Shown here: positions 20,319 to 25,372 of the stretch, in pieces
Position numbering within the stretch: the first letter of the stretch is position 1
Layout: each line of letters starts with the position of its first letter
The notes under the pieces: model-generated
Databases searched by the model: none
Seen by the model: the letters and a program-made list of their open reading frames with translations, nothing else
What the model was told of the DNA's origin: nothing
Source of the DNA: a virus
Reading direction: 5' to 3' (one strand)
Virus record (IMG/VR): IMGVR_UViG_3300048062_000011
Span: 1-25,372 of that record
Length of the DNA: 25,372 nt
Program-made: the position numbers and the translations under genes

Positions 20319-20765
20319 TTATACTGCTACGTCAGGATTTTTTTCCTTAACATAGTAATTACTTATAAAGGTTAGAGAAACAAAACCTAATGGTTTCTCA
20401 CCTTCAGCGTTAAAATCTATTTGAGTTGATTCAAGATAAGTATCTTTAGCTAAACCGCCTAATGTTCTATCAGCAGCAATAGCTTCCTCAACCTCTTTAC
20501 TTATTGTATCAATAGTATCATCAAAATTGCTTGTTGCCTTTGCATAGCCTTCAACAACTACTGATAATTCTCTACTCATAACTCTATCAGTACCTATAAC
20601 AATAGGCTCTGATGTTTCTGACTTTGTATATATAACTAAAGCTGGTAATTTAGAGTTTTCTATAGGATAGACTCTAGATTCATAAGCATTAGAACCAGTT
20701 GTAGATAAACCAGTTAGTGTAGTGCCAAAATATTCTCTTATTTGTTGTCTTATATGATTTGCCAT
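20319..20765 (-). CDS. Tail terminator, gpU-like
   Basis: A 148-aa protein with the recurrent features of lambda gpU-like minor tail proteins: RVYPIENSKLPALVIYTKSE, then RELSVVVEGYAKA, DDTIDTISKEVEEAI, and GGLAKDTYLESTQIDF with a final strand. Proteins of this family cap the tail tube at the end that joins the head. It follows the FII-like adaptor genes and precedes the tail tube gene, in agreement with the lambda order. It is linked to the upstream gene by a TAATG junction. Confidence 0.82.
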   Translation of the reverse strand: MANHIRQQIREYFGTTLTGLSTTGSNAYESRVYPIENSKLPALVIYTKSETSEPIVIGTDRVMSRELSVVVEGYAKATSNFDDTIDTISKEVEEAIAADRTLGGLAKDTYLESTQIDFNAEGEKPLGFVSLTFISNYYVKEKNPDVAV

Positions 20766-21115
20766 TACACTTCCTCTAACATTAAAGCAGTAAGACCTGT
20801 TCGATCTTTTTGCACATCAATTATAGTATAATTTTGTGCTGCTTTTAGTATATCACCCTCAACAGTTGTTGTTGCACTTGCATTAAGTAAATCACCCTGT
20901 GTAACACTAGGAACATCTATGCTTCTGCAATATGCTATAGGTTTAGTAGCTTCTACACCAATACCTGTGTCTTGCTCTACATACTCTCTATTTAAAATAA
21001 TCTTTATAGCTGTAGATACACCACCTCTTATATAAGTTGCGTTAATAGCATGACCAAAATCAACATCAAAATATGCCAACATATCCTCTTCAGTCTCTAA
21101 CATATACTGTGACAT
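20765..21115 (-). CDS. Head-tail adaptor, FII-like (copy B)
   Basis: A 116-aa protein related to lambda gpFII head-tail joining proteins: HAINATYI, STAIKIILNREYVEQDTG, YCRSIDVPSVTQGDLL, NYTIIDVQKDRTGLTALMLE. The I-x-x-EY ... R-x-x-D-V-P ... GD-x-L ... Y-x-I-x-x-V-x-x-D-x-TG pattern is that of the family. It has the same plan as the gene directly upstream, so the two are tandem paralogues. The conserved C-terminal LEE codons (TTAGAGGAA) also provide a GAGGA Shine-Dalgarno for the tail terminator, which starts at the TAATG junction. Confidence 0.78.
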   Translation of the reverse strand: MSQYMLETEEDMLAYFDVDFGHAINATYIRGGVSTAIKIILNREYVEQDTGIGVEATKPIAYCRSIDVPSVTQGDLLNASATTTVEGDILKAAQNYTIIDVQKDRTGLTALMLEEV

Positions 21116-21516
21116 TATTGTTCCTCTAAAACCACTTCAATAAGACCTGTATTATCAGGCATTACTGTTTTAATTGTGAATAATGTTTGTGGTACAAGTG
21201 TATTGCCATTATTTGTAGTAATAGCATCTACTTTTATTTGATCACCATGATTTATGTATGGTGCATCAGTTGCTTTTATTATTGCTCTTGGTTGATAACC
21301 ATCTACTGGCACTGAACCAGTTGCAATACTAAAGTATTCTTGATCAATAATTATATTTATAGGATAAGAGTCACCTGTATCTATATCATGCCAAGTATCT
21401 ATAAGGCTTGTTCTAGAATCCCATAAAGTTGTTTGGGTTTCAATGAAAGTAGCAGATACGCCATGAGCATTTGGGTCTACATAAGAGTTAAAATCTGCTG
21501 AACTCTCGATAGGCAT
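21115..21516 (-). CDS. Head-tail adaptor, FII-like (copy A)
   Basis: A 133-aa protein with the same backbone as the following gene: HGVSATFI, YPINIIIDQEYFSI, RAIIKATDAPYINHGDQI, LFTIKTVMPDNTGLIEVVLE. Compared with copy B it has a ~15-residue insertion (TTLWDSRTSLIDTWHDIDTG) after the first strand. The shared signatures H-x-x-S/N-AT-F/Y-I, EY, D-x-P, GD, TI, V-x-x-D-x-TGL and LEE span the whole length. One copy may form the connector ring and the other another neck layer; this is inference. LEE codons again supply GAGGA for the next gene. Confidence 0.72.
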   Translation of the reverse strand: MPIESSADFNSYVDPNAHGVSATFIETQTTLWDSRTSLIDTWHDIDTGDSYPINIIIDQEYFSIATGSVPVDGYQPRAIIKATDAPYINHGDQIKVDAITTNNGNTLVPQTLFTIKTVMPDNTGLIEVVLEEQ

Positions 21517-21782
21517 TATTTTTTAGCTCTTTTTTTTACTGCTTTAGTTTCAGATTTTTTAAGACCTACGCTTCTATTTGCCTTTTTAGCTTTTGGTTTC
21601 TCTTTATATAGTTCAGCCTTTTTGTTGGCTACAAGATCAAAACCTTGAGCTGCATCTAACTCAACTATATCTCCAACACTAACTCTTTGTTTGTTAGCTA
21701 TTGTGTCTCTCAATATTAAATATTTATGCATCTTAATAGAGGTGGGGTTTTTCACCCCACCATTTTCAGTGGTTAATACCAT
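21516..21782 (-). CDS. Small basic head-region protein, 88 aa
   Basis: An 88-aa protein with a compact N-terminal part (HKYLILRDTIANKQRVSVGD, then IVELDAAQGFDLVANKKAEL) and a strongly basic disordered C-terminus (KAKKANRSVGLKKSETKAVK). The K-Y-x-x-L-x-D-T-I-A-x-x-x-x-V-x-x-G-D-x-V-E-L pattern is shared by short phage proteins encoded just after the capsid gene (DUF7210-like). The role is unknown; a head-completion or DNA-contacting role is only suggested by position and charge. TAATG junctions link it to both neighbours. Confidence 0.65.
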   Translation of the reverse strand: MVLTTENGGVKNPTSIKMHKYLILRDTIANKQRVSVGDIVELDAAQGFDLVANKKAELYKEKPKAKKANRSVGLKKSETKAVKKRAKK

Positions 21783-23026
21783 TAACCGTCATTACCTAAA
21801 CAGAAAGATACTGCATTTCGAACCGCAACATCTACCATCTGAATCCCCACTACCCTAACTGTTCCTGAAGAAGAATTAGTGTATGGGTCTACGATTATAT
21901 CGAGACCGCCAAAGAATCCAACTAATAGGTCTGAGAAGTTACCAAAGTAATGATCACCAGCAGTAGGTTGGTTAGAAACAATAACATTATAGTTATTAAC
22001 TCTACCATCTCTATCTACAACAAACTGAGCTGTGCCTGAAGCCTTTTCAGTTGTTTTTAGCGTACCATAATTATCAGCTCTCATAATGTAAGAAAGGTTG
22101 CCTAGTAGAGCATTGTCTACAGCAACTTGACTTTCCATATTTACTGTTTCTGCCCATGTTGGGTTAGCAGCAGCAAATGTTACAGTATTGATACCTGATG
22201 TATTTTTGATACCTGTTGGGTTACCTGAAGAGCCTGATCCTTCTAAAGCAGCATCATCAATAGCTAAAGCCATGCTTTGTGCTATGTCGTTTCTGATTAG
22301 ATTCTCAACGTCTAAAGAACTTTGAGTTAACAGTTGTCTAGTAACATCTGTAAAACAACCTAAAGTTTTAGGGCTGAGAGTCACACTGCCAATAGCCATT
22401 TCTGACTCAGCAACAGCAGTTCCTTCACTTGATACGAAAGCAGCAGTAGAAGTACCAGTTTTCTTAGGTATTTTTACGTCACCCTGTAATCCTCTTAATA
22501 ATGTAGCACCTGCTGACATTACTGAAGATGAATTTCTTAATGCATCAATGAAATCACCAGCTCTAAAGTCTTGTCCTACCGCACCAGCATCATCAGTTGT
22601 ATTCAAATCTCTTTGATTCCAATCTCTTAATACTTCAGGTGGTAACATAAGACCCTGTGAGTTTCTTCCATATGCTTCAGAAGCAGCAGCAGAACATTCA
22701 AATTCAAATTCTGCAGCTCTTTGAGCAGCTCTATCTGAAGGGTTGGCTAGTGCGTTAATTCCTCTTACTAGGCTAAATCTCTTCATTTCTTTTTTGCTTA
22801 GTCCAATATCTTTTGGAGTTTCAAGTGGCTTACTAGCAATAGTTTCTAGTAATTCACCTCTAAACTCTTCAATAGTTTTGTGTTCAGCGATTGCTTTTGC
22901 AGCTAAGTCTTTTTGATTATGTCTTTCAGCTAACTTGTAAATCTCTTGTGAGTTTCTTTTTAATTCAGCTTTGACTTCTTCAGCAGATTTAGCTTTAACT
23001 TCGTCTAAATTGACTTCGTTATCCAT
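21782..23026 (-). CDS. Major capsid protein, HK97 fold, from internal start
   Basis: An internal ATG at 23026-23024 has a canonical AAGGAG six bases upstream (23038-23033) and would yield a free 414-aa capsid protein, in frame with the protease ORF. The first ~100 residues (MDNEVNLDEVKAKSAEEVKA ...) are helical and charged like the HK97 delta domain, which serves as scaffold and is removed by the protease. The core follows: LMLPPEVLRDW, DFIDALRNSSSVMSAGATLL, GDVKIPKKTGTSTAAFVSSE, SVTLSPKTLGCFTDVTRQLL, then ALEGSGSSGNPTGI, all typical of HK97-type capsid proteins. It ends VDVAVRNAVSFCLGNDG. The upper-level fusion is described separately. Confidence 0.88.
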   Translation of the reverse strand: MDNEVNLDEVKAKSAEEVKAELKRNSQEIYKLAERHNQKDLAAKAIAEHKTIEEFRGELLETIASKPLETPKDIGLSKKEMKRFSLVRGINALANPSDRAAQRAAEFEFECSAAASEAYGRNSQGLMLPPEVLRDWNQRDLNTTDDAGAVGQDFRAGDFIDALRNSSSVMSAGATLLRGLQGDVKIPKKTGTSTAAFVSSEGTAVAESEMAIGSVTLSPKTLGCFTDVTRQLLTQSSLDVENLIRNDIAQSMALAIDDAALEGSGSSGNPTGIKNTSGINTVTFAAANPTWAETVNMESQVAVDNALLGNLSYIMRADNYGTLKTTEKASGTAQFVVDRDGRVNNYNVIVSNQPTAGDHYFGNFSDLLVGFFGGLDIIVDPYTNSSSGTVRVVGIQMVDVAVRNAVSFCLGNDG

Positions 23027-24001
23027 TTTTATCTCCTTAAAAGATTGAGAACGTCCAACACCAACTAGTCTGCTTTGATCAGCAGGAACTGATACAGAAG
23101 ATACTTCCATAGGAGTCCAAGCTGCTCTATAAGCAACCTCTTTAGAGTCTTTTATTCTCATTAGTTTATTTACACGATATCCGACTGAAATATTCATTCG
23201 TATACCATCCTTCACGTCTTCAAACACTTCTGAAGCAAGTCGACTTTTACCAAATCGAACTACAGCAATTGTCCTTTTAGCTGTTTCATCTAGTCTGAAA
23301 TCTTCTATAACACCTATTTGCTTAGTCATGTCATGATCTAAAAGTAAAGGTGCTCTGCCTGAATTAATAAATTCCATATTAATATCATCGGCTTTATGAC
23401 TTAGTATTTCCATGCCAAATGATCTCTCAACTGGCTCTTCTGAAGATACACCTATTCTTACAGTCCTTGTATCTTCATCAATAAATTTTGCTCTTGAAAG
23501 GTCTATGTTTCTATATCGCATCGGCATATCAACAACTTTTCTTTCATCTTCAGGCTCTTCATAGTTTTCCTCTTCTATGACTTCCTCTTCAACCTCTTCC
23601 TGATGCTCTTTTGCAAACTCAACAATAACAGATTCATCTGTTTCGCTTACATTTAATATATGTCTATCTTCTTTATCCTTCATAGATTTTTCCTCTTTCA
23701 TTTTTTCTACTAGTCTTCTTGACCAAGTATAACCTGCATCGCCACCCCATAGTGCCCATGCAATCCTACCATTTGAAGGGTAGCCATCTTCACCTTGACT
23801 AAATCCTTCTGCTTTTTTATCAACTTCATGTCTACTAAAAAAGCTAAACATTCTTTTAACAGTTTCATCTGATAGATTTTCACCAGCTACTATTTGCCTA
23901 GCTCTAACAGCACCAACCCTAGTGCCACCTCTACCATGCTCTTTCCGCCAATCTAAGCCTTTCTGTGCTTCTGATTTCATGCCACCTGTAGGTTTAGGCA
24001 T
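21782..24001 (-). CDS. Prohead protease fused to major capsid protein
   Basis: One open frame of 739 aa from ATG at 24001. Residues 1-100 hold a small domain (GRGGTRVGAVRARQIVAGEN; RHEVDKKAEGF; AWALWGGDAGYTWSRRL) that also occurs elsewhere in phage head-gene clusters. A strongly acidic linker follows (about 132-154). Residues ~160-320 are an HK97-type prohead protease with LLLDHD (H223), NISVGY (S272) and PMEVSSVSVPAD (E299), the expected catalytic set. From M326 the capsid protein continues with no stop. A longer TTG start (24019) exists, but the ATG overlaps the portal stop as ATGCCTAA, fitting local style. In most HK97-like phages protease and capsid are separate genes. Self-processing could free the two parts. 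Confidence 0.85.
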   Translation of the reverse strand: MPKPTGGMKSEAQKGLDWRKEHGRGGTRVGAVRARQIVAGENLSDETVKRMFSFFSRHEVDKKAEGFSQGEDGYPSNGRIAWALWGGDAGYTWSRRLVEKMKEEKSMKDKEDRHILNVSETDESVIVEFAKEHQEEVEEEVIEEENYEEPEDERKVVDMPMRYRNIDLSRAKFIDEDTRTVRIGVSSEEPVERSFGMEILSHKADDINMEFINSGRAPLLLDHDMTKQIGVIEDFRLDETAKRTIAVVRFGKSRLASEVFEDVKDGIRMNISVGYRVNKLMRIKDSKEVAYRAAWTPMEVSSVSVPADQSRLVGVGRSQSFKEIKMDNEVNLDEVKAKSAEEVKAELKRNSQEIYKLAERHNQKDLAAKAIAEHKTIEEFRGELLETIASKPLETPKDIGLSKKEMKRFSLVRGINALANPSDRAAQRAAEFEFECSAAASEAYGRNSQGLMLPPEVLRDWNQRDLNTTDDAGAVGQDFRAGDFIDALRNSSSVMSAGATLLRGLQGDVKIPKKTGTSTAAFVSSEGTAVAESEMAIGSVTLSPKTLGCFTDVTRQLLTQSSLDVENLIRNDIAQSMALAIDDAALEGSGSSGNPTGIKNTSGINTVTFAAANPTWAETVNMESQVAVDNALLGNLSYIMRADNYGTLKTTEKASGTAQFVVDRDGRVNNYNVIVSNQPTAGDHYFGNFSDLLVGFFGGLDIIVDPYTNSSSGTVRVVGIQMVDVAVRNAVSFCLGNDG
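23033..23038 (-). promoter_or_regulatory. Internal ribosome-binding site for capsid protein
   Basis: AAGGAG, six-base spacer ATAAAA, then ATG, inside the fused protease-capsid frame. It encodes K-E-I-K-M in the fusion, exactly at the junction between protease and capsid delta domain. Its spacing and match are better than those of most true gene starts in this window. Confidence 0.8.
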
Positions 24002-25372
24002 CCTCTTCACCACCTTCAATTATAGGCTCTATAGGTGCTTTAGTAGCACCAAAAGGCTGATAAGCTAATTCTATATCATATTCTTTAGCTAATTCTACCT
24101 CTTTTTGATGTTGTTCAAATAATTCCTCAACATCACGACCATAGTTAGCTGATATGTCACTATATGTAACTGTACCATTTTGTAATCCTATAACATTAGC
24201 GTTCATTTCTTTAAGTGGGTCTATCCAAGCAAAGTTTCTAGGTATAAATGTTGCTGATGCAATAAATTTGTCTATTTTTTCTACTGGTAGTGATAAATAA
24301 TTAGTAGCAATAGCCATTTCTAGCCATTCTGCAAATATTGGCTCAATCATGTGTTCTATCATAAATTGTTGCCATATTTGATAGCTACTTCTATCTTCTA
24401 AGCTACCTTGTCTTATTGAAGAGTAGTTTACTGATGTTAAATCGTTGCTTAAAGCATGATATGAAATGTTTAAACCACTAGCTATGCTTCTTAATACGCT
24501 AGAAGTAAAACCCTCAAATGCACTTGTTGGATGTTGTGGGTCAAATGACTGAAATGATACACCTGCTGGTAATTGCTCAAATGTACCTGCATTTGCAGTT
24601 TGTACTGGGTTACCATCTATCTCTTCTGAGTCACCAACATAACCATCACCATCAGGCGAAGTAAAGAAACCCATTTTAGAACTTGCAACTCTTGCAGCAA
24701 CAATCTCAGCTTCAAGATATGCGTTAAGTTGCTTAACATTAGCCATTACAGTTGCAATATTAGTAACACCTCTTGTTTGTTCAGGTCTTGTTGGCATGTA
24801 TAGATGTATTATTTCATCAGCAGGTACAACTATATGCTCGTTTTCATTCATATAAGTTCTATCGAATGGATGATTCTTGTAAAGATGGTATGCAACTGGC
24901 TTGTCATACTTATCAACCTCAACACCCATCTTTATTTCATTACCAGTCTTAGGATTATGCTTGTTTAAATCTTCATCTAAGTGGTCTGCTTCTAAAAACT
25001 GTATTTGAAAGCCAAAAGGTGAGTCTTCTTTCTTGAGTTTCCTAATTAAGACTTCACCATCTCTTGCTAAGGCTTCAATAGCTATTTTTTGACAATCTAA
25101 AAACGATAATCTGCCATTAGCTGTACAATTACCCATTTTTGACCATTGTTTCCATGCATCTTCAATAAGTTTATTAGCTCGTATATCTAATTTGCCTTGA
25201 TTGACATCATCATCAAGCCTTACCTTTGCACTTAGCCTAATACCAGCCTTACCTATGACATTTGAAACCATAAGATTCAAATATCTTGCAATATGTGAGT
25301 CATTTCTAGCTAATTCTCTAGCTCTATCTCTTAAAACTCTTATATTGTCTTTAATTTCTGCATCTGCTGATG
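23994..25372 (-). CDS. Portal protein, lambda type, N-terminus outside window
   Basis: The frame is open through the right edge, so 458 residues are visible and the true start lies beyond. The visible N-terminus SADAEIKDNIRVLRDRAREL then ARNDSHIARYLNLM corresponds to residues some 45-60 into lambda-family portals. Further signatures are NVIGKAGIRL, DCQKIAIEALARDGEVLIRK, IIHLYMPTRPEQTRGVTNIA, YSSIRQGSLEDRSSYQIWQQ and EPIFAEWLEMAI. The dodecameric portal is the DNA gate at one head vertex and docks the terminase. The apparent methionine at 25280 is a TTG inside the gene, not the start. Its stop overlaps the protease-capsid ATG by eight bases. Confidence 0.92.
   Translation of the reverse strand, partial: SADAEIKDNIRVLRDRARELARNDSHIARYLNLMVSNVIGKAGIRLSAKVRLDDDVNQGKLDIRANKLIEDAWKQWSKMGNCTANGRLSFLDCQKIAIEALARDGEVLIRKLKKEDSPFGFQIQFLEADHLDEDLNKHNPKTGNEIKMGVEVDKYDKPVAYHLYKNHPFDRTYMNENEHIVVPADEIIHLYMPTRPEQTRGVTNIATVMANVKQLNAYLEAEIVAARVASSKMGFFTSPDGDGYVGDSEEIDGNPVQTANAGTFEQLPAGVSFQSFDPQHPTSAFEGFTSSVLRSIASGLNISYHALSNDLTSVNYSSIRQGSLEDRSSYQIWQQFMIEHMIEPIFAEWLEMAIATNYLSLPVEKIDKFIASATFIPRNFAWIDPLKEMNANVIGLQNGTVTYSDISANYGRDVEELFEQHQKEVELAKEYDIELAYQPFGATKAPIEPIIEGGEEDA

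Follow-up and report, generated by a model that had tools for sequence, protein, structure and literature searches.

A single open frame in the marine phage record studied here very probably forms a nested gene with two products, and perhaps three, in which a fusion of a prohead protease to a capsid protein and a free delta-capsid precursor would both be made, assemble together and then be trimmed by cleavage. A sequence-only reading of this DNA had predicted two products, a 739-aa fusion and a 414-aa capsid protein, and the comparative evidence points to this as the best reading. The protease-capsid fusion is itself an established kind of gene, represented by the model NF045541, by PHROGs 617 and 4523 and by genes of named phages; for a nested capsid start in such fusions we found no published description in the open-licence literature. 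Fused genes of this kind present a puzzle, as a shell would seem to need far fewer proteases than it has subunits. A conserved nested start would resolve this, and would account for the delivery of the protease into the prohead with no targeting signal of its own. If this is true, the annotated 'major capsid protein' of 600-900 aa in many phages is not the main assembly subunit, and annotation, structure prediction and heterologous assembly should begin at the nested Met.

The fused gene and its domains

The window, i.e., the whole 25,372-base stretch analysed, carries terminase, replication, tail and head genes, and its main genes all lie on the minus strand. The fused gene (21782-24001, minus) runs from an ATG at 24001 to a stop at 21784-21782 with no in-frame stop inside, and this open frame encodes 739 aa comprising an accessory N-terminal domain, an S78 protease, a delta domain and an HK97-fold capsid; with a TTG at 24019 as an alternative outer start, the product would have 745 aa. 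The 3' end of a lambda-type portal gene (23994-25280, minus; PF05136, phrog_21) overlaps the outer start. Further along, two adjoining genes at 20765-21516 (minus) both match phrog_82 (head closure), possibly through duplication. The profiles matched by the fused gene are phrog_617 (E 2e-143, residues 162-737), phrog_4523, the NF045541 fusion model, TIGR01554 and PF05065. Both domains lie in one frame and the gene thus belongs with the known protease/capsid fusions, while the NF045541 match (137 bits against a cut-off of 525, covering the protease and delta part only) marks it as a relative outside that subfamily.

The whole protein served as query for the first 100 relatives, taken from viral contigs and annotated phages. 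The first viral scan used patterns that included one spanning the junction, and later scans used capsid-only or protease-only motifs for viral contigs and a protease-only motif for bacterial genomes. The statistics pool loci from all scans, and relatives were grouped at 80% identity into 130 clusters, which are not phylogenetically independent. Wherever both domains were visible they formed one frame (313 of 313 loci, including those found with capsid-only and protease-only motifs), and none of these two-domain loci had separate protease and capsid genes. The uninterrupted frame claimed in the sequence-only reading, which had not given its minus strand, is as such genuine, and a sequencing error masking a stop between the domains is excluded. 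Loci with a single domain (19 protease-only and 7 capsid-only) were mostly cut by contig ends. The exceptions include two genome contigs (L276 and L292) with protease ORFs of 516 and 613 codons and no recognisable capsid domain, which are possibly decayed prophages or have a different capsid.

The accessory domain occupies residues 1-106 (23684-24001, minus), has a confident helical fold in the AlphaFold model and is matched over residues 4-114 by phrog_2859, a family of unknown function. A disordered, acidic stretch (residues 133-170) lies between it and the protease domain, residues 172-318 (23048-23488, minus), which is folded in the model. In isolation this domain scores 23.2 bits against PF04586, above the curated cut-off of 21, and matches TIGR01543 below its cut-off; on this sequence evidence we assign it to the HK97-type prohead proteases (S78, PF04586). 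Residues H223 (in LLLDH) and S272 (in NISVGY) are invariant in 78 sequences and intact here, and from knowledge of the S78 family we take them to be the catalytic His and Ser. At the junction of protease and delta, residues 320-334 form a linker with pLDDT below 50, and M326 sits inside it, between folded domains. The scaffold-like delta domain, residues 333-463 (22613-23005, minus), is helical by AlphaFold secondary structure, and is followed by a disordered linker, residues 463-482 (22556-22615, minus; pLDDT below 50), which is the putative region of maturation cleavage.

The mature capsid domain, about residues 473-739 (21785-22585, minus), with its HK97 fold at residues 484-737, matches PF05065 (E 3e-40) and TIGR01554 (E 1e-35); the alignment to TIGR01554, a model for HK97-type capsid precursors in full, begins at model position 2 and residue 341. 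In Foldseek the top match is the R4C capsid chain 8gta_A, followed by the D3, RcGTA and HK97 capsids. The domain is an HK97-fold major capsid protein by both sequence and fold. The R4C chain comprises only residues 362-629 of a 629-residue gene product, with protease and delta absent, and its residue 362 aligns to the linker at 463-482; by this analogy the shell chain is consistent with the predicted proteolysis of the delta domain. Neither the protease domain nor processing is discussed in the R4C papers.

From this arrangement we infer internal initiation, co-assembly of two products in some ratio and a cleavage site, as follows. Initiation at 24001 would give the protease-delta-capsid fusion, and initiation at an internal ATG at 23026 would give delta-capsid alone, a free precursor that is the counterpart of HK97 gp5. 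Because the delta and capsid domains are common to both, the two should assemble together. In HK97-type capsids the delta domain faces the prohead interior, and a protease hanging from its N-terminus would be delivered inside the prohead, packaged without a separate targeting step since it is attached to an inward-facing end. After assembly the protease would cut near residues 463-482, whereupon delta and protease would leave together and a uniform mature shell would remain.

The probable nested capsid start

An AAGGAG six bases ahead of an ATG had been noted at the domain junction, and it is there as described: the Shine-Dalgarno (SD) run lies at 23038-23033 (minus), the spacer ATAAAA at 23032-23027 and the start codon of M326 at 23026-23024, in the linker between protease and delta. 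The predicted free precursor of delta plus capsid (21785-23026, minus; TIGR01554) would have 414 aa. Aligning relatives, the check suggested in that reading, showed that the internal site has been kept along with the fused frame. An aligned Met is present in all named phages compared, which come from Roseobacter, Rhodobacter, Dinoroseobacter, Synechococcus, Escherichia, Enterobacter, Serratia, Acinetobacter, Achromobacter, Pseudomonas, Xanthomonas, Burkholderia, Vibrio and Halomonas hosts, and an in-frame ATG is found there, within 60 residues of the protease end, in 129 of the 130 clusters. The sole remaining cluster (L294) has an SD-ATG 101 aa downstream instead.

The first junction ATG is preceded by an SD 4-mer in 81% of clusters, compared with control rates of 12% for in-frame ATGs in the domains (n=1450), 8% for later ATGs in the linker or delta (n=388) and 15% for out-of-frame ATGs (n=2268). 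About a fifth of clusters have no clear SD at the first ATG. The Synechococcus phages S-CBS3, S-CBS1 and S-LBS1 (L086, L087 and L088) keep the junction Met with the SD absent; cyanobacteria rely less on SD. In the 27 close relatives the AAG and GAG codons are invariant (27/27) while the flanking Phe and Ile codons vary, and among columns with an invariant amino acid a G-ending codon is fixed in only 2 of 25 for Lys and 3 of 32 for Glu, the SD pair included. In more distant relatives the linker peptide is wholly replaced and the SD-ATG is retained. A strong SD-like run, GAAGGATGG (23195-23220, minus), also precedes the ATG of residue 269, inside the protease fold just ahead of the catalytic Ser motif; this candidate start was set aside, both for its place within that fold and because some relatives have lost the Met.

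One alternative is that the signal arises by chance or from the peptide, i.e., that a charged linker (KE, EE) ahead of a Met yields AGGAG-like runs by coincidence. The SD falls mostly in one codon register (90 of 112), and linker peptide preference would therefore give part of the signal; furthermore, for the window taken by itself, a site at least as good arises with p about 0.05 when the codons for this peptide are drawn at random among synonyms. To allow for what a charged linker alone could spell, the six codons preceding the Met were replaced at random by synonymous ones, following each gene's own codon usage, over 400 rounds. With amino acids thus fixed, the 130 clusters have 105 SD sites, against 47.7 expected and a maximum of 61 in the 400 simulations, which the peptide falls well short of explaining. 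Control Mets under the same resampling gave 193 observed against 229 ± 11 expected, a mild avoidance, and the excess persists with clusters at 65, 50 and 45% identity. That the Met is conserved in all named phages within a hypervariable linker also argues against chance. For the family this explanation is statistically refuted on codon evidence and we consider it extremely improbable, and by the same evidence the nested SD and ATG are judged to be under selection.

The other alternative is that only the fusion is translated, with free capsid arising solely as the protease cuts itself off at the linker or after delta, and with the SD-ATG as a relic of an ancestral two-gene layout. The fusion carries the protease in cis and the conserved residues are intact, the junction is disordered, neither protease nor delta is part of the R4C shell chain, and single-gene protease-capsid layouts have been described for MD8 and Gifsy-2, the latter by way of a citing source. 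However, a relic would decay, while this SD and ATG persist over 130 clusters as the linker peptide turns over, and the synonymous codons at the SD are constrained. A shell made from the fusion only would also nearly fill the prohead: by a rough estimate that assumes T=7 and an inner diameter of 38-42 nm, 415 full fusions would take up 67-90% of an HK97-sized lumen, compared with 27-37% for 60 fusions. We regard this single-product reading as unlikely.

Under the preferred reading, with both products translated, the fusion should be selected as well. The linker from the protease to the nested Met has 34 lengths across clusters, all in frame and without stops; since the length varies while the frame is always kept, and an irrelevant frame would have been broken, the frame matters. 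With fused frame and nested start both retained in the alignments, fusion and free capsid both appear to be selected. The further expectation of the sequence-only reading, that the fusion is scarce and the free capsid abundant, receives no support from signal strength. Ahead of the outer start lies a strong SD-like run, though farther away (dG -13.6, versus -8.2 for the nested site), and across named phages the two sites differ little in strength (medians -4.6 for the outer and -5.9 for the nested); SD strength was thus discarded as an uninformative predictor of the product ratio.

The accessory domain and a possible second nested start

The sequence-only reading had missed the accessory N-domain, a possible start at its boundary and a probable later cleavage near residues 463-482. 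Across the 130 clusters the N-domain is in frame in 36, a separate ORF in 2 and unseen in 92 (5 of these truncated), a distribution by which we consider it mobile. Close relatives without it have a frame that begins at about M107. In the window, M107 (ATG at 23683-23681, minus) is preceded by an SD-like GAGGAA (23695-23690, minus), and initiation there would give a 633-aa protease-capsid without the N-domain.

If M107 were also used, the gene would have three products, namely N-domain-protease-capsid, protease-capsid and capsid. This would extend the main explanation rather than replace it, with the N-domain form as a minor and perhaps specialised subunit. A strong SD-ATG lies between N-domain and protease in 32 of the 36 genes with an in-frame N-domain, where synonymous resampling gives 18.7 expected and a maximum of 25, and in one relative (L264) the N-domain is a separate ORF. 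In the Roseobacter phage CRP-823 (L085; 1489-2205 and 2165-4417), a 1-base insertion in a T-run relative to CRP-831 lies upstream of the second start site and puts the N-domain in a frame separate from that of protease and capsid. However, this insertion may be a sequencing error rather than a natural break, several candidate Mets occur per gene, and the SD is weak in the window itself (dG -5.9, compared with about -9 in many relatives). A third product from M107 is possible on this comparative evidence and less certain than the other two, and we lean very slightly against it. Both pieces in CRP-823 are annotated 'major capsid protein'.

Other fused and nested head genes

HK97 has the same domain order and folds in two separate genes, 4 (protease) and 5 (delta-capsid), whereas the window has one frame with a nested start, whose predicted product corresponds to gp5. 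In lambda C/Nu3 and herpesvirus UL26/UL26.5, a nested in-frame start yields a protease fusion and a protease-free partner. The window's gene resembles these in its in-frame internal start, here known from sequence, but differs in that the nested product is scaffold in those systems and delta plus the major capsid protein itself in the window. The comparison to C/Nu3 made in the sequence-only reading is therefore apt for the logic and does not extend to homology, as the lambda C protease is ClpP-like while that of the window is S78, and the nested product holds the capsid; the gene would work like C/Nu3 without being a member.

We think it somewhat more likely than not that nested genes are the rule among protease-capsid fusions of tailed phages and arose convergently, with at least three unrelated types keeping an internal ribosome-binding site for the release of free delta-capsid protein, so that these apparent polyproteins would be a dosage-controlled protease/capsid pair in one frame. 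Protease-scaffold-capsid fusions have been described in Microbacterium clusters EE and EL and in other small siphoviruses (PMC7302621, PMC9671004), and a nested start is not mentioned in the available portions of these papers. The EE fusions likewise hold an S78-type protease, a scaffold and an HK97-like capsid in one frame, but with another capsid family (PF25209, a weak match) and no accessory N-domain. MD8 gp5 comprises a protease, a scaffold-like region and a capsid as a single fused gene (PMC8508860), and a tripartite capsid gene is cited for Gifsy-2 (Effantin 2010, as given in a citing source); both are like the window's gene in holding these three parts in one gene, although the protease of MD8 is ClpP-type and unrelated to S78.

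In the EE cluster (L340, L342-L348), a Met with GAGAGGA lies right after the protease, at about residue 161-166, in 8 of 8 genes, and this SD-ATG survives changes in the linker. In MD8-type ClpP fusions (L341 and a subset of L394-L427), the Met after the protease aligns throughout and has an SD in 17 of 17; both of these samples are small or closely related, and the resampling statistics cover the window's family only. In some MD8-type fusions a further SD-ATG, very strong at a dG of about -12, lies within the end of the protease.
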